A stretch of 64,000 nucleotides of DNA from Mesorhizobium sangaii (GTDB lineage: Bacteria > Pseudomonadota > Alphaproteobacteria > Rhizobiales > Rhizobiaceae): positions 372,001 to 436,000 of the forward strand of contig NZ_JACHEF010000001.1 in NCBI RefSeq assembly GCF_014207355.1, read 5' to 3'. Shown here in pieces: positions 17,929 to 36,877 of this stretch. The translations under genes were made by a program, and so were the position numbers. The notes below the pieces were generated by a model, which did no database searches, was not told where the DNA came from, and worked only from the letters and a program-made list of their open reading frames with translations. Position 1 is the stretch's first letter. Each line of letters starts with the position of its first letter.

Positions 17929-17959
17929 ATTGCACGATAGTGTCGGCAATACTTTTGGA
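17929..17959 (-). promoter_or_regulatory. 30-bp regulon motif, copy 1 (efflux operon)
   Basis: On the minus strand: TCCAAAA, then core GTATTGCCGACAC (17952-17940), three bases, then CGTGCAAT. It ends 55 nt before the start of the 48-residue protein that heads the AaeXAB-type operon. Four further strong copies in the same orientation relative to a gene are listed below. It is probably an activator or repressor binding site. Confidence 0.75.
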
Positions 17960-18095
17960 TTGGTTTACGAAGCAGCGTCTCTCGGCTTGAGGCCGAGGCA
18001 AGACAGATTGCCCCAACGGTTGGGTGCTGTTGCTTTGGCAGGGTTGCCTCAGGGTTGATGTCGTCGCGGCTTGGGAGTGGCCTGCAGCGCTTAGG

Positions 18096-18557
18096 TCACA
18101 GCCTTCGCGGGACCACAAGCTTGGCCGTGAGGTTCTGAACAACCTCACCACGCTGATTGATCGTCCGGCTGACGATAGTAGCGATGCCTCGACCTGGCTT
18201 CGATCGGGAGGGTGTGATTTCGACGACTTCGCTCTCCACGTGCAGGACGTCGCCGGGGCGTGTCGGCGCCGGCCAGTTTATCTCTCCTCCTGCCCCGATA
18301 ATTCCGCCGGCCAGCGGCAAGCCGCCTTCGACATTCAGCCGCATGGTGATCGCGGCGGTGTGCCAGCCGCTTGCCGCCAACCCCTTGAACAGGGTGTCCC
18401 CGGCTGCCGCCGCATCCAGATGAAACGGCTGCGGATCAAATTGCGCGGCGAAAGCCTTGATCTGCGGTTCATCGATGGTATGGCTGGCGCTGACAAAGCG
18501 CTGTCCGACGTGGAGATCGTCGAGATGAAAACGACCTGCCGGGATCCGGTCACTCAT
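18096..18557 (-). CDS. MaoC-like (R)-specific enoyl-CoA hydratase/dehydratase
   Basis: 153 residues, a single hotdog domain. FAAQFDPQPFHLD carries the D-x(4)-H catalytic pair of MaoC-like hydratases, and FKGLAASGWHTAAITMRL is the following hotdog helix. The ATG at 18557 is chosen over 18578 because GGGAGG lies 8 nt upstream. It is the last gene of the acyl-CoA operon, 17 nt after the CoA ligase. It likely hydrates or dehydrates an unsaturated acyl-CoA intermediate. Confidence 0.87.
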   Translation of the reverse strand: MSDRIPAGRFHLDDLHVGQRFVSASHTIDEPQIKAFAAQFDPQPFHLDAAAAGDTLFKGLAASGWHTAAITMRLNVEGGLPLAGGIIGAGGEINWPAPTRPGDVLHVESEVVEITPSRSKPGRGIATIVSRTINQRGEVVQNLTAKLVVPRRL

Positions 18558-18574
18558 GATGCAGTTCCTCCCTT

Positions 18575-20239
18575 TCATTCAACGACCGCCATATTGCCAT
18601 AGGTCGCTCTGAGTTGCTTCTTGTCGAACTTTCCGACGCTGGTCCGGGGAAGTGTGTCTACAAACAGTATTTTGTCGGGAATGCCGACCTTCGAGATCAC
18701 ACCTGAATCGGCAAACGACTTCAGATGCGCCATTATCCTGATGTCGCTGAGTTCGCTGCCGGTCTTGGCATTCCTGATGACCAGAGCCAGGGGTCGCTCG
18801 CCCCATTTCTCGTCCTTGATGCCGATCACCGCCGCTTCGGACACACCCTCGCACTGAGAAATGAGGTCTTCAATCTGCAACGATGAGACCCATTCGCCAC
18901 CGGACTTGATGACGTCCTTTATCCGGTCGACGACACGGAGATAACCACCGGCGTCGATGACACCGATATCGCCAGTATGCAGATAGCCACCGGACCACAA
19001 TTGTTCGGACGCTTCCGGGTCGCCGGCATAGCCCTGCGTGAGCCACGGTGCGCGCACCACGATTTCGCCGGTGGTTTTGCCGTCGCGCGCCGCCTCATCC
19101 CGGTTCCTGTCGACCAGGCGCAGGTCGACAAGCGGTGCCGAGATGCCGGCCATGGTTCGGATATCGAGTTGTCTGTCCACATCGGCAGTCAGGTCCTCGG
19201 TTCTGACCTGTGCAAGTGAAAGCAGGGGCGCAGTTTCAGACATGCCATAGCCGGCATAGACGTCAACGCCGAGCGCAAGCGCTTGCCTGGCAAGCGCCTT
19301 CGGTAGCTCGGAGCCCCCGACCGCCATCTTCAATCCGGCAAGGTCGGTGTTTGCCGCCGTGGCGGCGCCGAGAAGCATCTGCAGGATTGTCGGAACGCCA
19401 TGCGTGACCGTCACGCCTTCAGTCTTGATCAGCTTGACGAGCAAATGCGGATCGTACCGGCCCGGATAGACTTGCTTGGCTCCGCTAAGCGTCGCCGTCC
19501 ATGGCAATCCCCAGGCGTGCGCATGAAACATCGGGGTCATCGGCATATAGACGTCGTCGCGGCCGAAACGTCCCTGTTTCGTGGCTGTGCCCAGGAAAGC
19601 CATTTGAGCGAGCGTGTGGAGCACCAGCTGTCGATGGCTGAAATTGACGCCTTTTGGCTTACCCGTTGTCCCTGACGTATAAAAGGTCGTGGCGAGGGTG
19701 TCTTCGTCGAAGTCCGGGAAATCGTAGTCGGCCGAGGCGCCGGCCAGCAGGTGCTCATATTCGCCTGCAAAGGAGAGGCTGCCAGTCTGGGGAACCGCTC
19801 GGTCCGACATCACAATCAGCGTCTTCACTTTGGGCAGTTGCTGCCTGATCCCTTCCAGGACCGGCACGAAATCATCGTTGACGAGAAGCACTGAGGGGCC
19901 TGCATGATCGATCGTGTAGGCGATCTGCTCCGGCGACAGCCGGACGTTCACGGTTTGCAGGACAGCCCCCATCATTGGAACCGCAAAATAGGCTTCCAGA
20001 AACCGATTGCTGTCCCAGTCGAGCACGCCGACTGTGTCGCCGGCTGCAACACCCAATCCGGCGAGGCTGGACGCGAGCCGGCCGATGCGTTCGCGCAACT
20101 GGCGATACGTGAAGCGCCTCACGTCGCGATAGACGATCTCCTGATCCGGTGCCTGCACGAGCGGCGTATGCCACAGCTGCTTTATGAGCAGCGGATACCG
20201 ATATGCGGAGTTGGCGCCTGCTATGAGCCTGCCCGTCAT
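18575..20239 (-). CDS. Acyl-CoA synthetase (AlkK-like AMP-forming ligase)
   Basis: 554 residues of the ANL superfamily. The P-loop YTSGTTGKPKG is at about residues 187-197; YGMSETAP, the GDIGVID core, the hinge VDRIKDVIKSGGEW and the C-terminal Lys of TSVGKFDKK are all intact. Length and the start region match medium-chain fatty-acid ligases such as AlkK. It activates a carboxylic acid to its CoA thioester to feed the operon's beta-oxidation-like enzymes. The first gene of this operon lies some 6 kb upstream. Confidence 0.9.
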   Translation of the reverse strand: MTGRLIAGANSAYRYPLLIKQLWHTPLVQAPDQEIVYRDVRRFTYRQLRERIGRLASSLAGLGVAAGDTVGVLDWDSNRFLEAYFAVPMMGAVLQTVNVRLSPEQIAYTIDHAGPSVLLVNDDFVPVLEGIRQQLPKVKTLIVMSDRAVPQTGSLSFAGEYEHLLAGASADYDFPDFDEDTLATTFYTSGTTGKPKGVNFSHRQLVLHTLAQMAFLGTATKQGRFGRDDVYMPMTPMFHAHAWGLPWTATLSGAKQVYPGRYDPHLLVKLIKTEGVTVTHGVPTILQMLLGAATAANTDLAGLKMAVGGSELPKALARQALALGVDVYAGYGMSETAPLLSLAQVRTEDLTADVDRQLDIRTMAGISAPLVDLRLVDRNRDEAARDGKTTGEIVVRAPWLTQGYAGDPEASEQLWSGGYLHTGDIGVIDAGGYLRVVDRIKDVIKSGGEWVSSLQIEDLISQCEGVSEAAVIGIKDEKWGERPLALVIRNAKTGSELSDIRIMAHLKSFADSGVISKVGIPDKILFVDTLPRTSVGKFDKKQLRATYGNMAVVE

Positions 20240-20319
20240 GGCGGCATCCTCTGTAGTTTAGGAAAGCAAATTGCAGGAGCGGTCGCGATCGGTGATCGCG
20301 GCCGATGCCGATACTGAGC

Positions 20320-21285
20320 CTAAGCCGCGCGCTCGCCGGCTGTTCCCGAAGCGTTGGTGCGCAATTCGAGCAGGCCGAGCAGCAGTTCGTCGCGTTCCGC
20401 CTCAAGCTCCGCGACTGTGCGCGATCCGATCTCGGCATGGACGCTGTCGATGAGCTTCTGCTGCACCTCCTTCGTCAGCACCGGCGCGCCGAGGGACTTC
20501 CACGAAGCGGTCATTGGGCCTGCGAACTGCTCGAAGAAGTGGTCGATGCCGCCTTGGCCACCGCCGAGATGGTTGAGCATCATGTTGCCCATAATGCCCC
20601 AACGCAGGCCTGGCCCATAAGACAGAGCGGTATCGACGTCGGCTGCGCTCAGCACGTCTTCGGCGACAAGGTAATAGACCTCGCGTGCCAACGCACCCTG
20701 GAGACGATTGGCGACGTGCCCCGGCAGTTCCTTGTTGATGCGCACCGTCTTCTTGCCGATCGAGGTGTAGAATGCTTCTGCGCGCCCGATCGTCTCTTCC
20801 GAGGTCTTTGCGCCGCCGACGATTTCGACCAGTGGCATCAGGTGCGGCGGATTGAACGGATGGCCAATGACGCAGCGCTCGGGATGCGCCGCAGCGCCCA
20901 GCTGGATCTGACTCATCGGCAGTCCCGATGAGCTCGAGGCAATGATGACGTCGGGCGGCAACAACTGGTCGAGCTGGCCGTAGAGCTTCTGCTTGAAATC
21001 GAGCCGCTCGGGCCCGTTCTCCTGCACCAGATGAGCGTCTTTCACGGCCTCAGCCAGATCGGCGGTAAAGACGAGCCGCAGCGGCGAAGCTCCGGGAGCG
21101 AGCCCAAGCCTCTCGAGCGCCGGCCACGCGGCGTCGACGAACCGTCTCAAACCGGCTTCAGCATTGGGCGCAACGTCGGTTGCGACGACGTCGAGACCTT
21201 TGGCCAGGAAGAGCGCCGTCCAGCTCGCGCCGATAACGCCTGTTCCGATGACAGCGATCTGGCGAATGGTTTTGGTGTCGGACAT
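20320..21285 (-). CDS. 3-hydroxyacyl-CoA dehydrogenase
   Basis: 321 residues. The NAD-binding motif GTGVIG is at residues 14-19, then IIASSSSGLPMSQIQ, the catalytic HPFNPPHLMPLVEIVGG loop with its His, and GHVANRLQGALAREVYYL in the C-terminal domain. This is a single-function enzyme similar to L-carnitine/3-hydroxybutyryl-CoA dehydrogenases rather than a FadB-type fusion. AAGGAG precedes ATG 21285; a 49-codon upstream extension overlaps the intergenic space and is rejected. It lies 22 nt after the YWTD propeller gene. Confidence 0.9.
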   Translation of the reverse strand: MSDTKTIRQIAVIGTGVIGASWTALFLAKGLDVVATDVAPNAEAGLRRFVDAAWPALERLGLAPGASPLRLVFTADLAEAVKDAHLVQENGPERLDFKQKLYGQLDQLLPPDVIIASSSSGLPMSQIQLGAAAHPERCVIGHPFNPPHLMPLVEIVGGAKTSEETIGRAEAFYTSIGKKTVRINKELPGHVANRLQGALAREVYYLVAEDVLSAADVDTALSYGPGLRWGIMGNMMLNHLGGGQGGIDHFFEQFAGPMTASWKSLGAPVLTKEVQQKLIDSVHAEIGSRTVAELEAERDELLLGLLELRTNASGTAGERAA

Positions 21286-21307
21286 GATCTGATCTCCTTG
21301 AGAATTG

Positions 21308-22228
21308 TCAGGCGTAGGCAATGCCGGTGAGATTGCCCTGGGCATAACGAAGCGTCCGCTGCTCAGTCCCGTCGAGCTTGGCGGAATACACCGACCCGCC
21401 AAGGTCCGTGATGAACATGCGGTCGCCGGCAATATCGAGGGCGATGCCGATACCCTCCATCAGGCTGGCGAGCAGGATCTCTGGCGCACGCCCACGGCCG
21501 GGGGCCGGCTCGATCGGTGCGCGATTGACCGTGTTGCCGAAGGGAGGATCGCCGCGGTCGGTCCAATAGAGGAAGCCGTTTTTGAGATCGAGTTCGAGGT
21601 CGATTGGCTCAGGCAGGTCGTCGAACAGCACCTGGATGTCGGAGCGGTTAAATCCGTCCTCACCCTTCGGGAAATCCAGGCCTGCCCGCAAAATTCTGCC
21701 GAGGCCCGCATTATCCGGCCCCTTTTGTGTCCAGTAGACGTGGCGCCGGATCGGGTCCACGGCAATGCCGACGCACCATCTTGTCGCGTCGCTTCGATCG
21801 TCTTCGCCCTGCCCGGTCTGAACCAGTGTCTCGACGTCGGTGCCGTCAAGGTTGGCACGCATAACCCGCATCCCCTCGCGGTCAGACCAATAGAGCTTGC
21901 CGCTGCGCTGCTCCAGATGAAGCTGTTTTGGCGTGTGGGTGACGCCGTTCGGTATGATGATTTGACGATTGCTTCCGTCGAGATTGGCACGCTCGATGGA
22001 GCCGTCGTTGAGTTTGAGCGTCCCCATGTTGGTCCAGTAGATATGGCCGGCTTCGGCATCGACCACGATGCCGTCGGGAAACCGGCAGCCGGTGACGATG
22101 ACGCTTTGGTCGGAGCCGTCCGAATTCATGGCTTGAATGCGACCGCCGCTGAGTTCCAGCACGAACAGCCGGCCCATGCGGGCCGCGCCCGAAATGGTCT
22201 TTGCCTTGGTAGCTTCTAATATGCTCAT
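21308..22228 (-). CDS. YWTD (LDL-receptor class B) beta-propeller protein
   Basis: 306 residues with four clear YWTD-type repeats: IYWTNMG, LYWSDREG, VYWTQKG and LYWTDRGD, each about 45-65 residues apart and followed by LDG-containing strands (ANLDGSNRQ, ANLDGTDVE). This predicts a six-bladed propeller. There is no signal peptide, so it should be cytoplasmic. Its role inside a beta-oxidation-like operon is not established; a lactonase-like or scaffold function is possible by analogy with other six-bladed propellers (inference). Confidence 0.82.
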   Translation of the reverse strand: MSILEATKAKTISGAARMGRLFVLELSGGRIQAMNSDGSDQSVIVTGCRFPDGIVVDAEAGHIYWTNMGTLKLNDGSIERANLDGSNRQIIIPNGVTHTPKQLHLEQRSGKLYWSDREGMRVMRANLDGTDVETLVQTGQGEDDRSDATRWCVGIAVDPIRRHVYWTQKGPDNAGLGRILRAGLDFPKGEDGFNRSDIQVLFDDLPEPIDLELDLKNGFLYWTDRGDPPFGNTVNRAPIEPAPGRGRAPEILLASLMEGIGIALDIAGDRMFITDLGGSVYSAKLDGTEQRTLRYAQGNLTGIAYA

Positions 22229-22264
22229 GACCTGTCCCTTTCATGTCGCGGATGGCGGCAACGC

Positions 22265-23047
22265 CTATTCGGCCGCCATCGCTGACGTCTTCGTGAAATT
22301 CGGTGGACGCTTCTTGAGGAAGGCAGACAGCGCTTCCTTGGTGTCAGCGGAACGCAGGCGCTCGGCAAACTCCTGCCCTTCCGCGTCGATCGCCGCCTTG
22401 ATCTGGTCGATGAAACCCCGTTTGAGGAGCCGCTTGCTGGCCTGCAATGCGCCACCTGGCTTGGCTGCAAGCTTCTGTGCCGTCTCCATCGCCGTGGCGA
22501 ACAAGCCATCGTCAGGCACCACGCGGGTCACGAGACCCAGCTCCGCCGCCCGCGCAGCGCTGAACCGCTCTCCCAGCAGGAACAGTTCCGCGGCCCGAAG
22601 ATGCCCAATGCGCGCCGGCAGCGAGTAGCTCGATCCAAACTCCGGCGTCAGCGCCAGATTGATGAAGGGCAGCTGAAACCGCGCACCTTCGCCGGCGTAG
22701 ACCACGTCACAATGGGTCAGCATCGTTGTTCCGCCGCCGACCGCGGCACCCTGTACCGCCGCGACGATTGGCTTTTCGAACCCTACAAAAGCGTGCATCA
22801 GTTGCGTCTGCGGAGACTCCCCCGGCCCAGGCGGTGCTTTGAGGAACTCGCCTGCATCGTTGCCGGCGCAGAAGTCATCTCCTGCGCCATGCCAGAGGAC
22901 AACACGGGTTTCTCCGTCCTTCGCGGCATCGATCAGGATATTCGCCAGCTGCGTGTACATGGCGCCGGTCATCGCATTCTTCTTCTCCGGGCGATTGAGC
23001 TCGACCCGCAGGATGCCGCCGGAACGTTCGGTGAGGATGTCGGTCAT
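22265..23047 (-). CDS. Enoyl-CoA hydratase/isomerase family protein
   Basis: 260 residues of the crotonase fold. LNRPEKKNAMTGAMYTQL begins the domain; GAGDDFCAGNDAGEF forms the CoA pocket and oxyanion region; QGAAVGGGTTMLTHCD supplies the second oxyanion glycine. The two acidic residues of classical hydratases are not obvious at the LALTPEFGSSYSLP site, where Glu is present once, so isomerase or hydrolase activity is possible. The start is at ATG 23047, where family similarity begins. It lies 31 nt after the CoA transferase gene. Confidence 0.87.
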   Translation of the reverse strand: MTDILTERSGGILRVELNRPEKKNAMTGAMYTQLANILIDAAKDGETRVVLWHGAGDDFCAGNDAGEFLKAPPGPGESPQTQLMHAFVGFEKPIVAAVQGAAVGGGTTMLTHCDVVYAGEGARFQLPFINLALTPEFGSSYSLPARIGHLRAAELFLLGERFSAARAAELGLVTRVVPDDGLFATAMETAQKLAAKPGGALQASKRLLKRGFIDQIKAAIDAEGQEFAERLRSADTKEALSAFLKKRPPNFTKTSAMAAE

Positions 23048-23078
23048 TGTTTGTCTCCGTACTGTCGTTTGCGATCCG

Positions 23079-24305
23079 CTATGCAGCGCGTTCCTGTGCC
23101 TTCGGCACGGCGCCGCTGGCACGCAGGCTGTCGATGCCCTTGGCGTCGAATCCGACCTGCCGCAGGATCTCCTCGGTGTGTTCACCAAGACCGGGAGCGC
23201 CCCTGGCAGGAGCCTTGGTTACGCCGCGCACCTGAATTGGACTGCTGATCGTTTCGGTCAGCCTGCCTCCCGCGCCCTCGAGCGGAACGACGATGTCGTT
23301 CAGCCGCAGCTGCGGATCCTGGATGACCTCCTGCGGGCCGCGAATGGCGCCGAACGTGACGTGGACACCGTTGAAGACATCGTACCAATGCGCCATCGGC
23401 TGCGCGCCAAAAACCTGGTCGAGAATAGCCGTCAGTTGCGGCCTGTTTGCCGCGAGCTTTGCGCGGTCGGAAAAGCGCGGGTCGGCGAGGAGGTCTTCGC
23501 GCCCGATCGCCTTTGCCACATCCGCGACTTTGTCGGCTGTAATGATCAGGGCGAACCAAGTCCCGTCGGAAGCTTTGTAGATGTTAAGCCCCGCATTGGC
23601 GGGATTCTCGCGATCGTGCGGGGCGGCAAACTTCGCGCCGGCCAACGCTCCCTGGATCGAGACGCTTGCCGACCAGACGCCCTCGGCAAGCAGCGAGGTC
23701 GTAACGTAGGCACCCTTGCCCGTGCGCTCACGCCGATAAAGCGCGGTGACGATCGCCGAATAAAGCCCCATGGCCGTCGCGTTGTCGCCGCTGCCGCCCA
23801 CCGGCCAGGTTGGCGGCGCGCCGGCATCGCGCGTCATCGACAGCAGCCCGCTGCGTGCCCAATAGGAGGTGATGTCGAAGCCGGGCAGGTTCGCGTCCGG
23901 CCCGTTTTCGCCGAAACCCGTAAGGTCGGCGTAGATCAGCCTCGGATTCCATTCCACGACGTCGCTGTATTCAAGCTTGAGCTTGGCACGGGCGTGATGC
24001 GGCGTGTTGACGACGAAGACGTCGGCCCAGGTGACGAGCTTCTGCAGCACCTGCTGCGCGCTGGGCGATTTCAGATCGAGCGCGATGCTGCGCTTGTTGC
24101 GATTGGCGAGATGCCATTGATAGGGATCCTCTGCCAGCGGCTGCGGTGCGACCTGGTGCCCGTGTCTCCAGGGGTCGCCTGTCGGCGGCTCGACCTTGAT
24201 GACGTCGGCGCCGAAGTCCGACAGGATCACGGCGGCACTGGGACCGGCGACGAAGCTTGAGAAGTCCACCACCTTCAGCCCGGAAAAGATGTTGTCGGTC
24301 GTCAT
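23079..24305 (-). CDS. CaiB/BaiF family III CoA transferase
   Basis: 408 residues. GLKVVDFSSFVAGPSAAVILSD is the canonical N-terminus of family III CoA transferases; the catalytic Asp falls in LTGFGENGPDANLPGFDITSYWARSG, and GEHTEEILRQVGFD closes the protein. AGGAG lies close to the ATG. Its presence beside a CoA ligase means the pathway has two ways to load CoA, which may reflect a dicarboxylate or exchange step (inference). Confidence 0.9.
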   Translation of the reverse strand: MTTDNIFSGLKVVDFSSFVAGPSAAVILSDFGADVIKVEPPTGDPWRHGHQVAPQPLAEDPYQWHLANRNKRSIALDLKSPSAQQVLQKLVTWADVFVVNTPHHARAKLKLEYSDVVEWNPRLIYADLTGFGENGPDANLPGFDITSYWARSGLLSMTRDAGAPPTWPVGGSGDNATAMGLYSAIVTALYRRERTGKGAYVTTSLLAEGVWSASVSIQGALAGAKFAAPHDRENPANAGLNIYKASDGTWFALIITADKVADVAKAIGREDLLADPRFSDRAKLAANRPQLTAILDQVFGAQPMAHWYDVFNGVHVTFGAIRGPQEVIQDPQLRLNDIVVPLEGAGGRLTETISSPIQVRGVTKAPARGAPGLGEHTEEILRQVGFDAKGIDSLRASGAVPKAQERAA

Positions 24306-24331
24306 TTTTCGTTCTCCTGAAATCTTGCGGT

Positions 24332-25174
24332 TCAGTGCCCGTGGAATTGGGGCGCGCGTTTCTCGAGGAAGGCGGACGTGCCCTCTTTCTTGTCTTCTGT
24401 TCCGGCGCTGAGGCCGAAATAGGCGGCTTCGAGGGCCAGGCCTTCGCTCTGGCCCGTGTCCAAGCCCTTGTGCGTGGCTTCGAGCGCATAGCGCACGGCT
24501 ATCGGTCCGTTGGCGGCGATCTGGTGGAGGATGGCTTCGGCGCGCGCCAGTAGTTCGGCTGCCGGCACGATCTCGTTGACAAGGCCGATGCGGTACGCCT
24601 CGTCGGCACTGATCAGACCGCCGGTCAAAATGAGCTGAAGCGCGCGACCCTTGCCGATCAGACGGGGCAACCTCTGGGTTCCACCGCCGCCAGGGAGCAA
24701 TCCCAGCTTCACTTCAGGTTGGCCGAATTTGGCCTGGGGCACGGCGATGCGGATGGTGCAGGCCATTGCCGTCTCGCAGCCACCGCCCAGCGCAAAGCCG
24801 TTGATTGCAGCAATGACCGGCTTGCCAAGATTTTCCACCAGATCGAGCACTGCCTGTCCAAGACGGCTCGATGCCTCCGCCTCGACCGCGCTTACATGCG
24901 CCAGCTCGCTGATATCGGCGCCCGCGACAAACGCCTTGTCGCCGGTGCCTGTAAGAATGACGCCGCGCACCGCGACGTCGTCACGGGCATCCTCGAACGC
25001 CGAGCGGAGATCCAGCCAGGTCGCCCGATTGAGCGCGTTCAACACCTTCGGACGATTGATCGTCACATAGGCGATGGCGCCTTTCTTCTCGTAGAGCACG
25101 TTGGCGGCGTACATTTCGCTTACCGGCAAGCTCGTGGCGTGCTCGAGTGTCTGTGCAACAGCGGGCGAGCTCAT
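24332..25174 (-). CDS. Enoyl-CoA hydratase (crotonase)
   Basis: 280 residues. It has an N-terminal extension of about 25 residues, then [34 protein letters not shown] and [43 protein letters not shown] contains the catalytic Glu pair region of true enoyl-CoA hydratases, so this is the more likely hydratase of the two crotonases here. AGGAGACG precedes the ATG. It lies 62 nt after the acyl-CoA dehydrogenase. Confidence 0.9.
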
Positions 25175-25236
25175 GGATCGTCTCCTGAGTTTCGAAGTGA
25201 ATGACGGGATGTTTGACCGCTCCGGCCGTCAGCGCC

Positions 25237-26442
25237 TCACACGAAGGCGCTGAACCCGGTTGCGGCCTTGCCGACGATAAGGTTCTGCATCTGGAAGGTG
25301 CCCTCGTAGGAGTAGAGCGCCTCGGCGTCGGCAAACAGGCGTCCGACATTGTTGTCGACGATGATGCCGTTGGCGCCATGCACCTCACGCGCCCAGGCGA
25401 CCGTCTCGCGCATACGCTGCGTCGTGAATGCCTTGGCGAGCGACGCATGCTGGTCGAGAAGCTTGCCCTCGCCGTGGAGTTCTTCGAGGCGGAACATCAG
25501 CGCCTGGCACGCCGTCACATTGGCGAGCATTTTGGCGATGAGATCCTGGATCATCTGGAACGAGGCGATCGGCTTGCCGAACTGCATGCGCTGCTGGGTG
25601 TATTTCACCGCGGCTTCATAGGCGCCCATCTGCACGCCGGTGGACATCCAGCCAACGCCGGACCGGGTCTCGCGCAACACGTGGGCGGTATCGCGGAACG
25701 AATTGGCGTTCTGCAGACGGTTGGCTTCCGGAACGCGGCAGTTCTTCATGGTGATCAGGCCGTTCTGGACCACCTTGAGCGCCATCTTGTTCTCGATCTT
25801 CGCCACGCTGAAGCCGGGCGTGGTCTTGTTCTCGACGATGAACCCCTTGACCTGGTTGTCATCCAGATCGCGCGCCCAGATGATCGACACGTCGCACCAG
25901 GGTGCGTTGCCAATCCACTTCTTCTCGCCGTTGAGGATCCACGTATCGCCTTCGCGCTTTGCGGTTGTGAGGAGTCCGCCACCCGTCCCCGAGCCAACCA
26001 GCGGCTCGGTCAGGCCGAAGCAGCCGATCATCTCCAGCCGCGCCATCGGCGGCAGCCATTTCTGCCGCTGCTCCTCGGAGCCCAGCAGGGCAATCGTCCC
26101 CATGGCCAGCCCGGTGTGAACACCAAAGAAAGTCGTGAACGACGGGTCGACGCGCGACATCTCCATCGCCACCAAGCCCTTCAGCTTCGAGCTGTAGTCG
26201 CCAACGTTGAGGCCGCCAATATTGAGTTCCTTCAGCGGTTCGATCAGCTCGAAGGGAAAAGCATCTCTCACCCAATAATCGTTGATGATCGGCGCGACCC
26301 TGGTCTCCATGAAATCGTGCACCTTTGTGAGGATCGCTCGTTCCTCGGCGCTCAACGTGTCTTCGATTTGATAGAAATCGGCGTTGGGCGCCGGCAGCGG
26401 TTTCGGCTCACGGGCCTGCTTCAAGGCAGTTGCAGAAGGCAT
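25237..26442 (-). CDS. Acyl-CoA dehydrogenase (glutaryl-CoA dehydrogenase/ACX4-like)
   Basis: 401 residues. CFGLTEPLVGSGTGG and WILNGEKKWIGNAP form the FAD/substrate region; YTQQRMQFGKPIASFQMIQDL and the C-terminal YSYEGTFQMQNLIVGKAATG keep the Glu that acts as base in glutaryl-CoA dehydrogenases. The enzyme oxidises an acyl-CoA as the first step of the pathway. ATG 26442 is favoured by GGAGAG. It is the first gene of an eight-gene minus-strand operon, and the 30-bp motif lies 103 nt upstream. Confidence 0.9.
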   Translation of the reverse strand: MPSATALKQAREPKPLPAPNADFYQIEDTLSAEERAILTKVHDFMETRVAPIINDYWVRDAFPFELIEPLKELNIGGLNVGDYSSKLKGLVAMEMSRVDPSFTTFFGVHTGLAMGTIALLGSEEQRQKWLPPMARLEMIGCFGLTEPLVGSGTGGGLLTTAKREGDTWILNGEKKWIGNAPWCDVSIIWARDLDDNQVKGFIVENKTTPGFSVAKIENKMALKVVQNGLITMKNCRVPEANRLQNANSFRDTAHVLRETRSGVGWMSTGVQMGAYEAAVKYTQQRMQFGKPIASFQMIQDLIAKMLANVTACQALMFRLEELHGEGKLLDQHASLAKAFTTQRMRETVAWAREVHGANGIIVDNNVGRLFADAEALYSYEGTFQMQNLIVGKAATGFSAFV

Positions 26443-29462: not shown

Positions 29463-32400
29463 GAAAACTCCGATGGGATTTGGGTAGTGCCACGCGCCAC
29501 CGTGGTCATGACAACATCGTCGACGGACATTGCATCCGTCGAACAATGCGGGATTGAAAACGCGAATGTTGCTCCGGGGCCATCGTTGGCTTGCGCCCAA
29601 AGACGTCCATTGTGTCTTTCTATGATCGATCGGCTGACGGAGAGGCCAATACCCATGCCATCGCTCTTTGTCGTGTAGAACGCCTCGAACAGCCGTTCAG
29701 CCCCTTCGGGGCTAAAACCGATGCCCGCATCGCGCACGGTGAGGCGAACCTGTCCATCTTCGTCATCTGCGGTCCGAACCTGCAAAAGCCGCGGCCGGTC
29801 TTTGATGTCACGCATTGCATCCGCCGCATTGCGCAAGAGGTTCATGATAACCTGCTGGAGCTGGACGCGATCGCCGGCAACCATCGGCAGTTCGTCAGCC
29901 AGCTCTATGCGCAGCATCACGCGGTTGCGTTGCAGATCCGCCGATAGCAGTGCGACGACCTCCTGCGCTGCGTCGTTGAGATCGACCGGCTCGACGGTCA
30001 CCGCGCGCTTGGTGAACAAGGCGCGCAATCGCGCGATCACGTCCGCCGCACGCTTGCCGTCGCGTATCGTGCGCCGCGCTGTTTCCTGCGCTCCATCGAC
30101 GTTGGGCGGGTCGCTGGCCAGCATGCGAAGGCACGTGCTGGCATTGGTTATGATGCCCGCCAGCGGTTGGTTGACCTCGTGGGCGATCGAGGCGGTCAAG
30201 GCGCCGAGGCTCATGATGCGGGTGACCTGCGCAAGCTCCGATCTAAGCTTCTCGAGCGCCTCTTCAGAAAGCCGGCGTTGCGTTATGTCGAGAACGGCGC
30301 CGATATATTCGATCTGGCCATCGCCGTGGCATCCAGCCCGGTGCGCGATCAGGTGCAGATATTTGACCGACTGATCGGGCAGCACGATCCGGGGCTGGCA
30401 TTCGAACTCGCGATCGCCGCGTTGCGCCCGCTCAACCGTATTGACAATCATCGGCATGTCTTCGGGGTGGACGCGGCTGGCCATCCGATCGATCGTAATG
30501 ACCGTGTCCGGCTCAAACTCGAAGATGCGGTAGAGCTGCTCAGACCAGATGATCTCGCCGCTGGTGACGTGCCAGGAAAGATTGCCCATCCGTGCGAGAT
30601 GCTGGCCTTCCGCCAGGAACGCCTCGCTGCGCCTGAGGGCGTCTTCCGCTCGCTTGCGCGCCGTCATGTCGCGCGTGACACCAAGCTGTGCGATTGAGCC
30701 ATCGCTGGTGCGCAGCGGAGCGGCGTGCGTCTCCATGTGCCGGCGAACGCCATGAGCATTGATGAGGTCGAACTCCAGAAAGCCTTTCTCGCCGGCGCAA
30801 ATCTGCTCGTGGAACTGGTGATATTTTTCCTGATGCTCGGGAGCCACGAAGTCGAAAAATCGCTGCCCGATGACGTTATCTATGGATGGCACACCTGCCA
30901 TTATCGCGCCGGCCGCATTGGTGCGCAGAACCGTGCCGTCGCGGGCTACGACTTTCACGCATTCGGGCGTCGTTTCCACGATGGCGCGGAAACCCTCTTC
31001 ACTGCGCTTGCGGTCTTCGATGTCGGTGTTGACGCCATACCATCTGACGATGTTGCCATGTTCGTCGTGCAGCGGATTGGCGCGGAACAGGAACCATCGG
31101 TATTCGCCGTCATGGCGCCGCAGCCGCGCTTCGGTCTCTCCCGGCTTTCCCGAAGCCATGATGGTTTGCCAAGTATCGGCCAAACCAGTCATATCGTCGG
31201 GATGAACCGCGGCCGCCCAGCCCCAATCCTTCGCCCCTTCGGCGGTAAGGCCGATATAGTCGAGATAGTGCTTGTTAAGGAACTCGGCGGTGCCATCCAA
31301 ACGCGCCGCCCAGGCAAGAGTCGGAATCGTATCGATGGTAAGCTGCAGATTGCGCTCGCTTGCCGCCAGCGCCTGCTCGGTCCTCATTCGATCCTCGATG
31401 TCGGTGGCCAGGCAATACCAGCGAATAACATCGCCCGCGGCATCCCGAGCCGGATTGCTCCGAATCTGGAACCAGCGATAGATGCCGTCGAAACGTCGCA
31501 GCCTGGTTTCGAAATCCATCGGAACATGGGTATCGAGCGATCGTTTTACGGTCTCGGTGTGACGCACAAGATCGTCAGGATGAACCGTGCCGTTGATTGG
31601 CCAATTCGCGAATTCGTCCCGTGTCTGACCGAGATAGCCAAGGAATTGCTTGCTCAGCTCTTCAGCCTCTCCGGTTGCGTCGAAAACGGCGACCATCCCG
31701 GGAATGCTGTCCAGGATCTGCCGGGACCACCGCTCGCTTACGCGCAGCGCCTCTTCGGCACGTTTCAAATCCTCGATATCCGAGGTGACGCCATACCAAC
31801 GGATCACCTTTCCTGTCTCGTCGCGCATCGGCACGCGTCGGCCTATGTGCCAGCGATACGACCCGTCGGCCATGATGGCGCGATACTCGCATTCGAACGG
31901 TTCCTCGGTGGCCAGGCATTCTCGCCAGCGACTTTCGACGAGCGGCAAGTCGTCGGGATGGAAAAGGCGCCGAAAATCGGTGCCGCTGGGCTGGCCACTC
32001 AGTTCGAGCGTACGCTTGTTGACGTACACGTTTGTGCCGTCCGCGTTGTAAATGCCAACCCGTACCGGAATGCTGTCGATGGTCGCCTGCAGATTGCGCT
32101 CGCTCGCCGCCAGCGCCTGCTCGGCACGCTTTCGATCCTCGATGTCGGAGCTGACGCCATACCAGCGGATCACCTTTCCCGTCTCGTCGCGGATTGGCAC
32201 CCGGCGCCCTAGATGCCAACGATATGTGCCATCCGCCATCCGCGCGCGGTATTCAGCCTCGAAGGGCTCTTCCTTGGCGAGGCTCTCTCGCCATAGCCTT
32301 TCCGCGAGCCCAACGTCATCCGGATGGAACAGCTCCCTCCAATCGGCATCCCCCGGCAGTCCACTGAGCTCGATCGCTTGCCTGTTGGCGGAAACACGGA

Positions 32401-34336
32401 TGCCATTGGTGTCGTGTACGCTGACCCTTGCAGGAATCGAGTCCAGGATCAGACGTAATTCACGTTCGCTTGCCGCAAGCGCCTGCTCGGCGCGCTTTCG
32501 ATCCTCGATGTCGGTGCTGACACCATACCAGCGGATCACCTTTCCGGTCTCGTCGCGCATCGCCACTCGGCGCCCTATGTGCCAGCGATACGTCCCGTCA
32601 GCCATGCGCGCGCGATACTCGCATTCGAACGGCTCGCCGCTGGCCAGAGATGCACGCCAGAGTTCCTCGGCGCGTTCCAGATCGTCGGGATGAAAAACCT
32701 CTCGCCAATCTGACCCAACGGCGTAGCCACTCAACTCGAGCGCTTGCTTGTTGGCGGAAATGCGGTTTCCCTCTGTATCGTAGATGCCAACCCTGGCCGG
32801 GATGCTGTCGACAATCAGGCGAGACTGGCGCTCGCTTTCCTGCAACGCTTGCTCCGCGCGCTTACGATCCTCGATATCGTGGGCGATGCCATACCAGCGG
32901 ACTATCTTCCCAGCTTCGTCGCGCATCGGCACGCGGCGCCCCAAGTGCCATCGATACGTCCCGTCTGCCATGCGAGCGCGATACTCGCATTCGAAATCCT
33001 CTCCAGTGATCCGGCATTCGTTCCATCGGCTCTCGGCGAGCGGCAGATCGTCAGGATGGAAGATGAGCCTCCAGTCGGCGACGCTGGGAATACCGGACAG
33101 CTGGACTGTACGTTTGTTGACGGATACGAGCCTTCCGTCATCGCTGAAGACGCCTACCCTGGCAGGAATGGTATCCAAGGTCGCCTGTAGATTGCGCTCG
33201 CTCGTAGCTAGCGCTTCCTGCGCGCGCTTCAAGTCGTCAATGTCGGTGTACAGGAGATTCCAGCCCAAGAGCCGGTGCTCGCCATCTCGGATCGGAGAGC
33301 CACGCACCTGGAACCATCGATACACGCCATCGAAGCGGCGATGCCTCTGCTCATATTCATAGGCCTCGCCCGTCGCCATGGCGTGCTTGAAGCGTTGCAG
33401 CAAACCGGGAAGATCGCCTGGATGGACCGCGTCGCCGGTGGACCAGCGCTGCAGTTCCTCGAGGGTTTTGCCGAAGTATTCACACATCTGGCGGTTAGCA
33501 ACTCTGATTTCGCCGGAGGGACTCAGCAGCGAAGCGCAGGATGGAATGCTGTCGACGATGAGACGTAACTGGTATTCGCTCTCGCGCAGTGCCTGTTCGG
33601 CCTGCTTGCGATCCTCGATATCGATCAGGAAGTGGAACCAGCGCAGGATTTGACCGCGCGCATCACGCAAAGGCATGCCGAGCACGTTGTACCAGCGATA
33701 GACTCCGTCGGCGCGACGGTGGCGACTCTCGACGTTATAAGAGCCGCCCTTCTGGTGCGCAGCGACCTGGGCCGCGATGGTGTGCTCGAGGTCATTGGGG
33801 TGGACGACCTCGGACACCTTCCAGTCTCTCAACTCCTCAAACGTTTTGCCAAAATAGTCGAGGGTCAGCTGATTGAGACCTTCGACCTCGCCTGTCGGCG
33901 TGGTCACGGCAACCGGAATTGGAATGCTCTCTACGAGCGACTGAAAATCGAACTCCTGCTGATTGAATGTCTCCTCCGCGCTCCGCGCGCCCCCGACTTC
34001 GGTTGCAACTCCGCACCATTTGCCGAGCTGTCCTGTCTGGTCGTGCACCGGGCTGCATTGGATCAGGAACCTGCGATACTCTCCGTCCGCGCGGCGTATA
34101 CGCGCATCAATCTCGGCGGGCTGACCGGAAGCGATGATCGATTGCCAGTCTTGGAGTAGTCTTTCCAGATCGTCTGGATGGACAACGGCCTGCCAACCGC
34201 GGCTGCGCTGCTCGTCCCAACAGATGCCGCAGTAGTCGCACCAGCGTCGATTTATAAGGTCAATGCTTCCGTCGGGCAGCGCGGTCCACGCCATGGCCGG
34301 CAGCGCATCCAGTATGCCGCCCTGACCACTCTTCAT
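29459..34336 (-). CDS. Giant soluble multi-PAS histidine kinase
   Basis: 1625 residues with no transmembrane segment. I count about eleven PAS/PAC units of 120-130 residues from the N-terminus, then a HisKA domain with phospho-acceptor His1386 (SLGALTASIAHEVNQPLAG) and an HATPase_c domain (VIMNLLRNAADAM, RDAGIGFSPEGAERLFEAFY, GMGIGLSVSRSI). The kinase core is of the FixL/TodS/DctB class. PAS units 4-7 are nearly identical in many stretches (HIGRRVPMRDETGKVIRWYG) and repeat every 366 bp at DNA level. No haem-PAS histidine pattern is evident to me. It is coupled to the receiver gene downstream. Confidence 0.93.
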   Translation of the reverse strand: MKSGQGGILDALPAMAWTALPDGSIDLINRRWCDYCGICWDEQRSRGWQAVVHPDDLERLLQDWQSIIASGQPAEIDARIRRADGEYRRFLIQCSPVHDQTGQLGKWCGVATEVGGARSAEETFNQQEFDFQSLVESIPIPVAVTTPTGEVEGLNQLTLDYFGKTFEELRDWKVSEVVHPNDLEHTIAAQVAAHQKGGSYNVESRHRRADGVYRWYNVLGMPLRDARGQILRWFHFLIDIEDRKQAEQALRESEYQLRLIVDSIPSCASLLSPSGEIRVANRQMCEYFGKTLEELQRWSTGDAVHPGDLPGLLQRFKHAMATGEAYEYEQRHRRFDGVYRWFQVRGSPIRDGEHRLLGWNLLYTDIDDLKRAQEALATSERNLQATLDTIPARVGVFSDDGRLVSVNKRTVQLSGIPSVADWRLIFHPDDLPLAESRWNECRITGEDFECEYRARMADGTYRWHLGRRVPMRDEAGKIVRWYGIAHDIEDRKRAEQALQESERQSRLIVDSIPARVGIYDTEGNRISANKQALELSGYAVGSDWREVFHPDDLERAEELWRASLASGEPFECEYRARMADGTYRWHIGRRVAMRDETGKVIRWYGVSTDIEDRKRAEQALAASERELRLILDSIPARVSVHDTNGIRVSANRQAIELSGLPGDADWRELFHPDDVGLAERLWRESLAKEEPFEAEYRARMADGTYRWHLGRRVPIRDETGKVIRWYGVSSDIEDRKRAEQALAASERNLQATIDSIPVRVGIYNADGTNVYVNKRTLELSGQPSGTDFRRLFHPDDLPLVESRWRECLATEEPFECEYRAIMADGSYRWHIGRRVPMRDETGKVIRWYGVTSDIEDLKRAEEALRVSERWSRQILDSIPGMVAVFDATGEAEELSKQFLGYLGQTRDEFANWPINGTVHPDDLVRHTETVKRSLDTHVPMDFETRLRRFDGIYRWFQIRSNPARDAAGDVIRWYCLATDIEDRMRTEQALAASERNLQLTIDTIPTLAWAARLDGTAEFLNKHYLDYIGLTAEGAKDWGWAAAVHPDDMTGLADTWQTIMASGKPGETEARLRRHDGEYRWFLFRANPLHDEHGNIVRWYGVNTDIEDRKRSEEGFRAIVETTPECVKVVARDGTVLRTNAAGAIMAGVPSIDNVIGQRFFDFVAPEHQEKYHQFHEQICAGEKGFLEFDLINAHGVRRHMETHAAPLRTSDGSIAQLGVTRDMTARKRAEDALRRSEAFLAEGQHLARMGNLSWHVTSGEIIWSEQLYRIFEFEPDTVITIDRMASRVHPEDMPMIVNTVERAQRGDREFECQPRIVLPDQSVKYLHLIAHRAGCHGDGQIEYIGAVLDITQRRLSEEALEKLRSELAQVTRIMSLGALTASIAHEVNQPLAGIITNASTCLRMLASDPPNVDGAQETARRTIRDGKRAADVIARLRALFTKRAVTVEPVDLNDAAQEVVALLSADLQRNRVMLRIELADELPMVAGDRVQLQQVIMNLLRNAADAMRDIKDRPRLLQVRTADDEDGQVRLTVRDAGIGFSPEGAERLFEAFYTTKSDGMGIGLSVSRSIIERHNGRLWAQANDGPGATFAFSIPHCSTDAMSVDDVVMTTVARGTTQIPSEFS
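31801..32911. repeat. Tandem 366-bp PAS-encoding repeats
   Basis: The plus-strand anchor ggatcacctttcc occurs at 31801, 32167 and 32533, with a diverged version (ggactatcttcc) at 32899, so successive units are exactly 366 bp (122 codons). The bases around each anchor are also very similar. This indicates in-frame tandem duplication of one PAS unit inside the kinase gene. The interval given runs from the first to the fourth anchor. Confidence 0.8.
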
Positions 34337-34388
34337 GCGCTATCCTTTCCAGCCTGTCGGCTAAACTGCGCCAGCGTCCGGCAAACGT

Positions 34389-34408
34389 CTATTATGCCTT
34401 GGTGTCGG
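34389..34408 (-). promoter_or_regulatory. Degenerate half of the regulon motif ahead of the kinase gene
   Basis: Read on the minus strand, CCGACACCAAGGCATAATAG resembles the right part of the motif (CCGAYACC, then GTGCAATAG) with several mismatches. It ends 52 nt before the kinase start. If real, it would mean autoregulation; it could be chance. Confidence 0.3.
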
Positions 34409-34432
34409 TTTTGTCGGTCTCGCCACGGACAG

Positions 34433-34463
34433 TCCAAAAGTATTGCCGACACCTTCGTGCAAT
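34433..34463 (+). promoter_or_regulatory. 30-bp regulon motif, copy 4 (DUF1127 gene)
   Basis: TCCAAAA, then core GTATTGCCGACAC (34440-34452), three bases, then CGTGCAAT. It differs from copy 1 at only two positions. It ends 62 nt before the DUF1127 start codon and lies in the divergent gap with the kinase gene. Confidence 0.75.
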
Positions 34464-34525
34464 CGATTCTTCTGCGGCGACGGGCCAGTTCTACCAAGGT
34501 TCAGTTGGAACCAAAGGATACGTCA

Positions 34526-34756
34526 ATGGCCACGATCAAGACAAATTACCTGATGCCGAAGGGGCTGGACGACGACCTCGAACAGACCTGCGATTCGGCT
34601 TTCTCGGTCACGTCCAGGATGGCCTGGTTGGAGCGGCAGGTGAAGAAGCGGCGCTCGCGCAAGGCCCTGCTCGAACTGAGCGACGAACTGCTGAAAGACA
34701 TTGGTCGGTCGCGCCTTGAAGCCAACCGCGAAGCGCGCCGCTGGTTCGCTGATTGA
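34526..34756 (+). CDS. DUF1127 (YjiS-like) small protein
   Basis: 76 residues ending in an arginine-rich DUF1127 domain: KKRRSRKALLELSDELLKDI, then GRSRLEANREARRWF. Short DUF1127 proteins are known from Agrobacterium as RNA-related regulators of phosphate and carbon metabolism. The first 30 residues are unfamiliar. AAAGGAT precedes ATG 34526. It is divergent from the PAS kinase and 62 nt behind a copy of the 30-bp motif, so it is likely co-regulated with the surrounding genes. Confidence 0.85.
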   Translation: MATIKTNYLMPKGLDDDLEQTCDSAFSVTSRMAWLERQVKKRRSRKALLELSDELLKDIGRSRLEANREARRWFAD

Positions 34757-34849: not shown

Positions 34850-35608
34850 ATGGAGCTGACGGCCGCCACGATAATTGTCGCTTTTGCCGGCGTTTTCCTG
34901 ATCTCGTTCATGCGGGGCGCGTTCGGCGGTGGAGTTGCCATCATTGGCATTCCGCTGTTGTCGATTGTCATGGATCCGGTGACGGCGGGTGGCCTCCTGG
35001 CGCCGCTTTTCGTTGCGACGGACCTGGTCGCATTGCGCTACTGGAAGTCGTCGACATGGTCGAAGCCCGACCTATTGCTGTTGTTGCCAGGCCTCGTGGT
35101 CGGGATAGGACTTGGCTATCTGCTGTTTCGCGTTCTGGACCACCGCGCCATATCGATCGTCATGGCGGTGACCACCCTGATCTTCGTCGGCCTTTGGTTT
35201 GCCGCGGGAGCGAACGTCACGATTCGACCGCGCTCATCGCCGAAGGCGGTTGGCGCCGGCCTAGCATCGGGTATCACAACTATGGTGGCACATTCGGGCG
35301 GACCGCCGCTTGCCATGTATCTGCTGCCGCTCGGGCTCAGCAAGGACGTCTATGCGGGGACGACGAGCCTGTTCTTCACTGTCGGCAACTTGATCAAGGC
35401 GGTGCCTTGGCTGGTGCTGTCGAGGCCGGAGGGCAACACCTGGGTCGTGATGGCCGTTTGTCTGCTCGCCATTCCCGCCGGCGTATGGCTGGGTTGGCGG
35501 CTTCACGGAAAGCTCGATCAGCGCCAGCTTTATAGAGCCTGCTACGGACTCCTGATCGTGACGGCGTTCAAGTTGTTATGGGACGGCGTCTGCGGCTATC
35601 TTGTGTAG
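34850..35608 (+). CDS. TauE/SafE-family membrane permease
   Basis: 252 residues with about eight transmembrane helices. The two TauE/SafE half-repeats show as MRGAFGGGVAIIGIPLLS near the N-terminus and AHSGGPPLAMYLLPLGLS in the second half. The family exports sulfite, sulfoacetate and similar organic anions; the substrate here is unknown. CTGGAG lies before the ATG. It is separated from the DUF1127 gene by a hairpin and could be read through from the same promoter. Confidence 0.88.
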   Translation: MELTAATIIVAFAGVFLISFMRGAFGGGVAIIGIPLLSIVMDPVTAGGLLAPLFVATDLVALRYWKSSTWSKPDLLLLLPGLVVGIGLGYLLFRVLDHRAISIVMAVTTLIFVGLWFAAGANVTIRPRSSPKAVGAGLASGITTMVAHSGGPPLAMYLLPLGLSKDVYAGTTSLFFTVGNLIKAVPWLVLSRPEGNTWVVMAVCLLAIPAGVWLGWRLHGKLDQRQLYRACYGLLIVTAFKLLWDGVCGYLV

Positions 35609-35701
35609 ACCGCGCTCGGGAGATGATTGCCATCTGCCGGCGCGAGAGGGTGGCCTGGCTCATCAACACGACGCCTGTCCGTCTCTGTGATCTCGAGCCG
35701 A

Positions 35702-35737
35702 TCCAAACGTATGGCGAATCCAATACCAATGTGCAAT
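35702..35737 (+). promoter_or_regulatory. Regulon motif, degenerate copy 5 (alpha/beta hydrolase)
   Basis: TCCAAA is followed by a diverged core and then CCAATACCAATGTGCAAT. The right-hand 18 bases match the consensus well (CC-ATACC-GTGCAAT), while the left half of the core is poor. It ends 74 nt before the start of the exported hydrolase gene, in the same orientation as the other copies. Confidence 0.5.
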
Positions 35738-35811
35738 GGCACTGCCGTCGTTGAACGGGCATCAGTCTGGGCATCACAAGCAAAATGACGTAGCCACGAA
35801 GGAGAGAATTC

Positions 35812-36594
35812 ATGACAAGCATCTCAAAACTTGGCATTCGGCGAGCGATCTTTGCGGGAGCCTTGCTCCTCGCCGCCGCTGCCGGTTCGACGCCAACATT
35901 GGCGGAGCCTGCCGCAACGACAGTCGTTCTCGTTCATGGCGCTTTCGCCGACGGCTCCTCCTGGGCGAAGGTCATTCCGCTGCTGCAGAAAAAGGGATTG
36001 CACGTTGTCGCGGTCCAAAATCCACTGACCTCGCTTGCTGACGACGTCGCCGCAACGCAGCGCGCCATTGCGGAGCAGAAAGGTCCGGTGGTTCTGGTCG
36101 GCCATTCCTGGGCAGGTACCGTCATTACCCAGGCCGGCAATGACGACCACGTCAAGGCGCTGGTCTATGTCGCCGCTTTCTCGCCCGGCGATGGTCAGTC
36201 GACGTCCGATCTCATCAAGAACTACCCCACCCCGCCCGGATTGGCGCATCCGCAGGTTGATGCCGCGGGCTTTCTGACACTGTCACACGACGATATCGCC
36301 AAATACTTTGCCCCGGATGTTCCCAAGGCGGAGTCCAACCTGATCGCGGTCACGCAAGGCCCTGTGCGCGGCGCGAACTTCGACGAGAAGGTGACGACGG
36401 CTGCATGGAAGTCGAAGCCAAGCTGGGCGGTGGTCACCGAGAATGACCAGATGATCGACCCCAAGCTGCTCGCGGACGGCGCGAAGGCCATGAAAGCCCA
36501 TGTCACGGCCATCGCGTCCAGCCATGTTCCGATGCTGTCGCACCCAAAAGAAGTGACCGCGGTCATTCTGGAGGCGGTCGAAGCCGTCAAATGA
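35812..36594 (+). CDS. Exported alpha/beta hydrolase
   Basis: 260 residues. An N-terminal signal (AIFAGALLLAAAAGSTPTLA, cleavage near residue 31) is followed by an alpha/beta hydrolase of the EstC/pyrethroid-hydrolase type: VVLVHGAFADGSSW (oxyanion region), nucleophile Ser99 in GHSWAG, and a late His238 in ASSHVPML. An acidic residue near ENDQMIDP probably completes the triad. It should act as a periplasmic esterase or lactonase. AAGGAGAG lies just upstream. Confidence 0.88.
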   Translation: MTSISKLGIRRAIFAGALLLAAAAGSTPTLAEPAATTVVLVHGAFADGSSWAKVIPLLQKKGLHVVAVQNPLTSLADDVAATQRAIAEQKGPVVLVGHSWAGTVITQAGNDDHVKALVYVAAFSPGDGQSTSDLIKNYPTPPGLAHPQVDAAGFLTLSHDDIAKYFAPDVPKAESNLIAVTQGPVRGANFDEKVTTAAWKSKPSWAVVTENDQMIDPKLLADGAKAMKAHVTAIASSHVPMLSHPKEVTAVILEAVEAVK

Positions 36595-36846
36595 CGTTTG
36601 GAGCAGTAAAGAGCGGCGGCCTCGCCGGCTCCACGTGGTGTCGCACTGGATAGACCCCACAAATGCAACATTGCCGATCTGAGTGCGGCGGGCGCCTTGG
36701 CGCCCGCCGCACTCACGTCACGACGCGAAACTGCATTCTTACCAAGCCCCACACCCGCACGCGCAATGCGGTCGAGCTCCAGCGCCGACACGCGTGCATT
36801 GCTCCGCGGCTTCACCTCCAAGTTGCGCAATCAGGCTTCGGACCAA
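36595..36846. other. Gene-free stretch with a long palindrome
   Basis: No supportable gene lies between the alpha/beta hydrolase and the regulon motif. The main structure is a 16-bp perfect stem GAGTGCGGCGGGCGCC with a 2-nt TT loop (36681-36714). The remaining sequence shows no repeat or reading frame that I recognise. Confidence 0.5.
36681..36714. terminator. 34-nt near-perfect palindrome
   Basis: GAGTGCGGCGGGCGCC is followed by TT and its exact reverse complement. No T run flanks it. It lies 84 nt past the alpha/beta hydrolase stop and could end transcription of that gene, or be a cruciform-type or transposed palindromic unit. Confidence 0.45.
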
Positions 36847-36877
36847 TCCCAAAGTATTGCCGATACCTTGGTGCAAT
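36847..36877 (+). promoter_or_regulatory. 30-bp regulon motif, copy 6 (epoxide hydrolase operon)
   Basis: TCCCAAA, then core GTATTGCCGATAC (36854-36866), three bases, then GGTGCAAT. It ends 68 nt before the epoxide hydrolase start codon. It comes close to the consensus of the whole set. Confidence 0.75.

Follow-up and report, generated by a model that had tools for sequence, protein, structure and literature searches.

The stretch considered here, a window of 64,000 nt from the 7.2-Mb genome of Mesorhizobium sangaii (39 contigs; NZ_JACHEF010000001.1, positions 372,001 to 436,000), contains a 40-bp element repeated around the genes of a two-component system with a multi-PAS histidine kinase. 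An earlier note on this DNA had listed five strong copies and a degenerate one and had proposed them as a shared binding site of the local two-component regulator. All the positions and strands given there were recovered, and comparison with related genomes supports the proposal: the element is very probably an operator, read by the FixJ-type response regulator whose gene lies in this cluster. The copies in the window are as follows.

17923–17962, minus strand: full 40-bp site 1, toward a 48-amino-acid (aa) open reading frame (ORF) and the FUSC/AaeB-like, DUF1656 and HlyD/AaeA-like genes (profile E 2.0e-10)
26540–26579, minus strand: full site 2, toward an acyl-CoA dehydrogenase gene and the acyl-CoA operon (profile E 1.4e-9)
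28265–28304, minus strand: full site 3, toward an MscS channel gene with a cyclic nucleotide-binding domain (profile E 6.3e-7)
34430–34469, plus strand: full site 4, toward a DUF1127 gene and then a TauE-like gene (profile E 4.3e-10)
36844–36883, plus strand: full site 5, toward a Tat epoxide-hydrolase-like gene and a short-chain dehydrogenase/reductase (SDR) gene (profile E 1.2e-9)
35699–35743, plus strand: decayed site before an exported alpha/beta hydrolase gene, its halves split by a 5-nt insertion; intact in two relatives
34385–34407, minus strand: half-length site made of the proximal half, 48 nt ahead of the kinase start (21.5 bits); at the equal position in the relatives G035 (M. neociceri CCANP35) and G049 (Mesorhizobium sp. 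STM 4661)

Sites 1 to 5 lie 55, 70, 155, 62 and 68 nt from the start codon of the next gene, and the degenerate copy 74 nt, which bears out the earlier description of intergenic copies pointing toward the next gene and ending 55 to 155 nt before it. The anatomy had to be corrected in part. A pattern with the proposed three bases between GTATYGNCGAYAC and GTRCAAT had no match in the window, whereas four bases fit all five strong copies with 0 or 1 mismatch; the box is close to GTRCAAT in general, except that the copy at 26546 reads GTACTAT; and the conserved stretch measures 40 bp, with about 10 bp to the left of the core and 6 bp to the right of the box. When the four-base pattern was searched against the whole genome at three mismatches or fewer, 8 matches were obtained (1 with the reversed control pattern), among which the five at 0-1 mismatch are the window copies and the other three have three mismatches each. 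At the same tolerance, CCAAANGTATTGCCGACACNNNNGTGCAAT is found 3 times in the window and never in 100 shuffles. A genome-wide profile search likewise detects five strong places (rough E 2e-10 to 6e-7), all within the window, which answers the earlier worry that the motif might be equally dense elsewhere; a sixth match, on a different contig, is at chance level (E 0.0066 over 21 nt). Alignment of the degenerate copy to the intact sites of G035 and G049 located the insertion that separates its halves. An Rfam search of the window found no family, and a tRNA scan of the window for an integration site found none. One proximal-half match of 19.0 bits, at 25040–25062 on the plus strand, lies within an enoyl-CoA hydratase coding region and is probably due to chance.

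The two-component genes of the window are the following.

29459–34336, minus strand: multi-PAS histidine kinase, 1625 aa, with HisKA and HATPase_c and no strongly hydrophobic stretch
29091–29462, minus strand: single-domain receiver REC2, its start overlapping the kinase stop
28525–28998, minus strand: receiver part of the FixJ-type regulator; the frame breaks just before or inside the helix-turn-helix (HTH) domain, and the protein is full-length in relatives
28388–28531, minus strand: rest of the GerE/LuxR HTH domain, read in another frame and covering profile positions 20-57 of 57; it includes the recognition helix TVKAHRG

The kinase has about ten PAS domains and a single C-terminal histidine kinase core, and no receiver domain. 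As seems to have been suspected earlier, the reading frame of the strain's own FixJ-type regulator is broken: Response_reg and GerE, the receiver and HTH domains of a FixJ/NarL-family response regulator, are found in the two pieces, while relatives carry a single 205-aa frame, and these full-length orthologues align with FixJ and with 1yio from end to end. The HisKA and HATPase_c kinase adjoins the regulator, and a kinase and REC2 lie near the regulator in many distant loci as well. Among the five other regulator matches listed from the same genome, those inspected have V or I as the residue preceding HR in the recognition helix or, in one case, an altered IYR helix, and never Ala. Since the frame is broken, the response is probably impaired in this strain, with most sites persisting. 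One of the six full-site positions carries the 5-nt insertion, and this together with the frame break would fit a loss of the regulator followed by slow decay of its operators; an assembly error would be another explanation of the break.

A weight matrix refined on 22 genomes, that of the window included, collected 117 sites and gave the 40-column consensus CRATMCMAARGTATYGSCGAYACCWTCGTGCAATRGATTT, downstream of which the relatives have a -10-like element at a fixed distance. Anatomy was evaluated on 156 non-redundant sites. The best dyad centres by symmetry score are 6.0 and -2.5, and the direct-repeat score peaks at a shift of 17, matched only by a shift of 25, where 15 columns overlap. From this we infer that the motif may comprise four half-sites arranged for two dimers at a distance of 17 bp. 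One dimer each would bind to the distal half (CRATMC-N4-GTATYG) and to the proximal half (CGAYAC-N4-GTRCAAT), and the predicted spacing is 17 bp at the majority of loci and 18 bp in Acidobacteria and at a single Burkholderiales locus. When a two-base middle gap was allowed, sites in the 18-bp register were found in L175, L177, L178, L188 and L189. Downstream of the motif the composition is flat but for +47 to +52, with A at +47 in 110 of the 156 sites (p 1.8e-30) and T at +48, +50, +51 and +52 in 82, 80, 84 and 75 of them, and the motif's T23, G25 and A26 (in 153, 142 and 104 of the 156) occupy the expected -35 place. If transcription starts at +58, a predicted start some 28 nt behind the 40-bp site, the proximal half would be centred near -43, and by overlapping a degenerate -35 (T-R-G-A) it would take the position of a class II activator. 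Location and orientation were counted over 168 sites with home-made gene calls: 161 site cores are intergenic in stretches that are 80.6% coding, contrary to the earlier concern that the motif could be just as common inside genes, and 154 sites have a same-strand gene next, at a median distance of 94 nt.

Which protein could read such an element? Within the genus, comprising 146 genomes, the pattern at two mismatches or fewer has matches in 36, and stretches from 21 of the 35 other matching genomes were sampled. The receiver and HTH pieces of the window's regulator were matched in the stretches of 17 of these 21 relatives; those without a match are G040 (a 4-kb contig), G053, G082 and G102, and G053 also has no site above 18 bits. 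Across the genus an orthologue was found in 19 genomes (best E 1.1e-78 or lower), set apart from paralogues (1.2e-61 and weaker), and strong sites (profile E<=1e-5) were found in 22, namely in all 19 with the orthologue and in 3 of the 127 without it (Fisher 4.8e-21). The motif is tied to the FixJ-type regulator and not to the gene set of the earlier note, since the target genes vary between loci. G087, one of the 19 and outside the training data, has no pattern match at up to two mismatches, yet it has a profile site of 44.8 bits. Seven more genomes have one match each at about chance level (E 0.0018-0.00995). When protein families were counted at 41 motif loci, the FixJ type came to 37 (some paralogues are taken in by this count), REC2 to 27 and the epoxide-hydrolase-like family to 24, followed by 19, 17 and 15. 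The VKAHR helix was found directly in 36 of the 41 loci, and was read by eye in L175, where it is preceded by NKE; it is present in 24 of the 28 loci reached via genomes and not via the regulator, although one of them (G087) was fetched for its regulator. As separate observations, the sites at G040:C10, G082:C454 and G102:C1 (L059, L070 and L074) are possible relics, and in G040 the first ORF behind the site resembles a shortened relative of a target from other loci; in G075 and G095 (L068 and L072) the regulator ORF is open far upstream, and a stretch like the start of the epoxide-hydrolase-like protein precedes the receiver.

To look beyond the genus, GTDB genomes were searched with the intact G035 regulator, which gave 80 FixJ-family loci (1.38 Mb). 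The matrix trained on Mesorhizobium finds 63 sites above 18 bits in these loci, against none with five column-permuted profiles and none on reversed sequence. The sites lie, among others, in Bradyrhizobium (L163, L167, L184, L185), Hyphomicrobiales (L176), Acidisphaera (L216) and Tistlia (L225), and likewise in Dyella (L189) and Acidobacteria (L173, L175, L177). If the loci are divided by the recognition-helix residue before HR, a full site is present in 23 of the 35 with Ala (15 of 26 when the nine training genomes are left out) and in none of the 45 others; for the proximal half at 18 bits or more, the counts are 32 of 35 (23 of 26) and 2 of 45. In a tree of 95 rows, all 33 motif rows fall within one 47-row clade (SH-aLRT, the Shimodaira–Hasegawa-like approximate likelihood ratio test, 99 by a quick method), and the 48 rows outside have no motif. 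Three Paraburkholderia rows inside the clade (L181-L183) lack a full site and have M or T at the position of Ala, and may use a changed operator; a de novo operator search in motif-less loci gave no convincing shared motif in these three, but in L188 it revealed a form with 18-bp spacing, and in L238 half sites. L203 has a regulator outside the Ala group (VKVHR helix) and a 26-bit proximal half nearby. An order-wide profile search was positive at E<=1e-5 in 3 of 249 genomes, all three of the window's genus, and therefore the module is sparse outside the genus at that threshold and under stricter filters; a looser family pattern search was positive in 10 of 297 genomes, including G355, which has no site above 18 bits.

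A held-out test was made with 12 loci from 21 plasmid records that have a regulator match at E<=1e-60. All 12 share a common 11-residue protein sequence, and 27 full sites were found in 11 of them, with none in 20 permuted controls. The set includes plasmids of S. fredii CCBAU 45436, M. ciceri R30, R. leguminosarum WSM1325 and S. medicae WSM419, and S. meliloti pSymA of CCMM B554. Where plasmid neighbours are annotated (L248, L249, L250, L255), they include a PAS-domain kinase, a response regulator, an epoxide hydrolase, an FMN reductase, a VOC protein and an SDR.

In addition to full sites, the 43 motif stretches contain 67 proximal-only sites of at least 18 bits, compared with 0-2 in each of ten permuted controls; the half-length profile alone is less specific: in 12 of the 80 loci, 18 bits were attained by one or more of 20 permuted profiles. 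A same-strand gene is faced by 62 of the 67, and 29 of these genes belong to the system itself (kinase 20, REC2 6, FixJ 3). Fifteen of the 20 kinase half sites lie 41-58 nt before the called start. Seven plasmid loci (L250, L251, L255-L259) have a proximal half some 170-220 nt ahead of the regulator match; in L256 a full-site call overlaps this half. The half-length site at 34385–34407 on the minus strand is likely autoregulatory, and in general single proximal halves before the kinase operon or the regulator gene would provide autoregulation.

Taken together, we think it very likely that the element is the operator of the FixJ-type regulator. Two dimers are predicted to sit on it side by side, immediately upstream of a putative promoter, and the next gene would be switched on when the multi-PAS kinase phosphorylates the regulator. 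Several observations weigh against this. The proximal dyad is imperfect, and the centre at 14.5 is not distinctive alone by the symmetry score; 14 of the 168 sites have no same-strand gene next; and among the three closest strains conservation of the sites does not clearly exceed that of the flanks, a comparison that is uninformative because the flanks are 81-95% identical around intact sites. G040, G082 and G102 each hold one strong site without the regulator, and conversely three Ala loci (L187, L212, L235) have no site, as is the case for plasmid locus L254, which has the regulator. Because Ala marks a clade, common descent confounds its association with the motif. Finally, many loci were found through the regulator or the motif, and only the association over 146 genomes and the held-out plasmid test are free of that choice.

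The closest solved chain to the regulator is 1yio/1zn2 (E 3e-54; PDB name 'response regulatory protein'), which we take to be StyR. PMC2442086 describes activation by StyR from a site near -40 and separate StyR sites, one serving repression, while in the element described here the two halves are fused at 17-18 bp. Common to both systems are a FixJ-type regulator and two sites cooperatively occupied by two dimers, here as a prediction; the helix is TVKVHR in 1yio and TVKAHR here, the targets are other, and in many of our loci a single-domain receiver gene lies between kinase and regulator. Systems of the StySR/TodST type respond to monoaromatics, and their kinases are hybrids with the order PAS-HK-REC-PAS-HK (HK, histidine kinase core; REC, receiver), unlike the window kinase with its PAS repeats, one core and no receiver. 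FixL/FixJ shares with the present system the regulator family (5xso, E 1.3e-43) and a PAS-containing kinase, but the FixJ helix is TIEVYR, the kinase here has about ten PAS domains, and fix genes are not among the targets here. The family and the hosts are also those of NodV/NodW and other FixJ paralogues of rhizobia; the paralogues in the same genomes have VKV or VKI helices, and no row outside the clade has the motif.

Could the same operator and regulator work mainly by repression, the -35 region being occluded until a signal from the kinase lifts it? The proximal half overlaps the -35-like hexamer, and a precedent in the FixJ family is the second StyR site in the catabolite-repressed state, as given in PMC2442086. 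On the other hand, the site lies wholly upstream of the -10-like box and next to a poor -35, which is the arrangement of an activated promoter, and StyR itself activates from about -40 according to the same source; we consider such a repressor unlikely.

Explanations that do without the regulator fare worse. The A+T box at a fixed spacing, 17 nt downstream, could suggest a promoter of an alternative sigma factor, but a 40-bp block with four half-sites upstream of a separate -10-like box is not a pair of short -35/-10 or -24/-12 boxes, both 17- and 18-bp dyad spacings as well as half-length versions exist, and the gene common to the loci encodes a GerE-domain regulator and not a sigma factor, so that we hold this very improbable. 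It is just as improbable that the binder is another DNA-binding protein of the cluster, such as the AraC type encoded at 13199–14122, near the first site of the window, or LysR and MarR types elsewhere: the AraC-type protein has one weak partial match among the clusters of the 21 relatives (34% over 29%, G013), and no other family reaches 28 of the 41 motif loci. Were the element a dispersed repeat or a piece of mobile DNA with no part in regulation, the patchy presence of the cluster between genomes would fit, but this reading is contradicted by one cluster per genome, intergenic and oriented copies, unrelated flanks and the fixed -10 spacing, and hardly any weight can be given to it.

If the element is the operator of the FixJ-type regulator, the genes behind it are the candidate regulon, which in the window comprises the following.

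14347–15567, minus strand: HlyD/AaeA-like adaptor
15567–15770, minus strand: DUF1656 (AaeX-like) small protein
15767–17722, minus strand: FUSC/AaeB-like efflux protein
17727–17873, minus strand: previously unlisted 48-aa ORF with a hydrophobic stretch, the first gene behind site 1; AGGAG upstream, no Pfam match
18096–26475, minus strand: acyl-CoA operon (acyl-CoA dehydrogenase, enoyl-CoA hydratases, CoA-transferase, Ldl_recept_b-repeat protein, 3-hydroxyacyl-CoA dehydrogenase, acyl-CoA ligase, MaoC)
26595–28115, minus strand: channel with MscS beta-domain and cNMP-binding domain
34526–34756, plus strand: DUF1127 protein
34850–35608, plus strand: TauE/SafE family exporter
35812–36594, plus strand: alpha/beta hydrolase
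36946–38247, plus strand: epoxide-hydrolase-like protein (EHN and abhydrolase)

The efflux operon is behind the copy at 17929 as the earlier note had it, but its first ORF is the 48-aa one and the FUSC/AaeB-like gene comes second; in G068 a similar 48-aa ORF is likewise the first gene behind a site. The epoxide-hydrolase-like protein aligns to solved epoxide hydrolases (5f4z, E 1.7e-93) through both GGDxG and GGHF, and is a predicted enzyme. Over the 154 same-strand sites of all loci, the first gene is epoxide-hydrolase-like at 28 sites in 21 loci, an SDR at 12, an enoyl-CoA hydratase at 10, and a [2Fe-2S] subunit and a kinase at 6 each. Groups of five or fewer include VOC, DJ-1/PfpI, metallo-beta-lactamase fold, AhpC-TSA, SelR/MsrB, FMN reductase and zinc-dependent alcohol dehydrogenase (ADH), and further MFS, FUSC, MscS, DUF1127, DUF4331 and cytochrome P460; several first-gene groups match nothing in Pfam. 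More tentatively, the regulon may handle reactive or toxic small molecules. This detoxification label, the weakest part of the scheme, is drawn from the gene mix, namely epoxide-hydrolase-like enzymes, SDRs, enoyl-CoA hydratases, VOC/glyoxalase, DJ-1/PfpI, quinone-oxidoreductase-like ADH, FMN reductase, MsrB and efflux. Apart from these genes, an ordinary 2860-aa ORF at 47739–56321 on the minus strand has GH94 and glucoamylase-like domains, a combination known from cyclic beta-glucan synthases.

Within the searches made, no relevant paper was found for the motif strings, in agreement with the earlier note, which knew of no description of the consensus, and none that describes the system by topic. 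The family and the mechanism class are known, while the operator, the regulator subfamily and the regulon appear undescribed within those searches; of the many FixJ-type regulators, few have a known operator. A broader picture, to which we give about an even chance, is that kinase, single-domain receiver and FixJ-type regulator form a self-contained module that has passed from phylum to phylum without a change to its operator grammar. Induced detoxification genes would be served by a two-dimer operator (17- or 18-bp register) and the module's own operon by a one-dimer operator, new enzymes and pumps would be plugged in behind ready-made operators, a single Ala of the helix would set the DNA code, and the present strain would be a natural mutant with a broken regulator, its operators decaying. 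Operator, regulator, promoter geometry, autoregulation and targets are predicted jointly across phyla here, and a single protein and a single 40-bp oligonucleotide could probe the scheme. If it is true, it would offer a case for the evolution of DNA specificity in FixJ-type regulators, a ready set of inducible promoters, and a searchable signature for a regulon of reactive-compound enzymes in plant-associated and soil bacteria.

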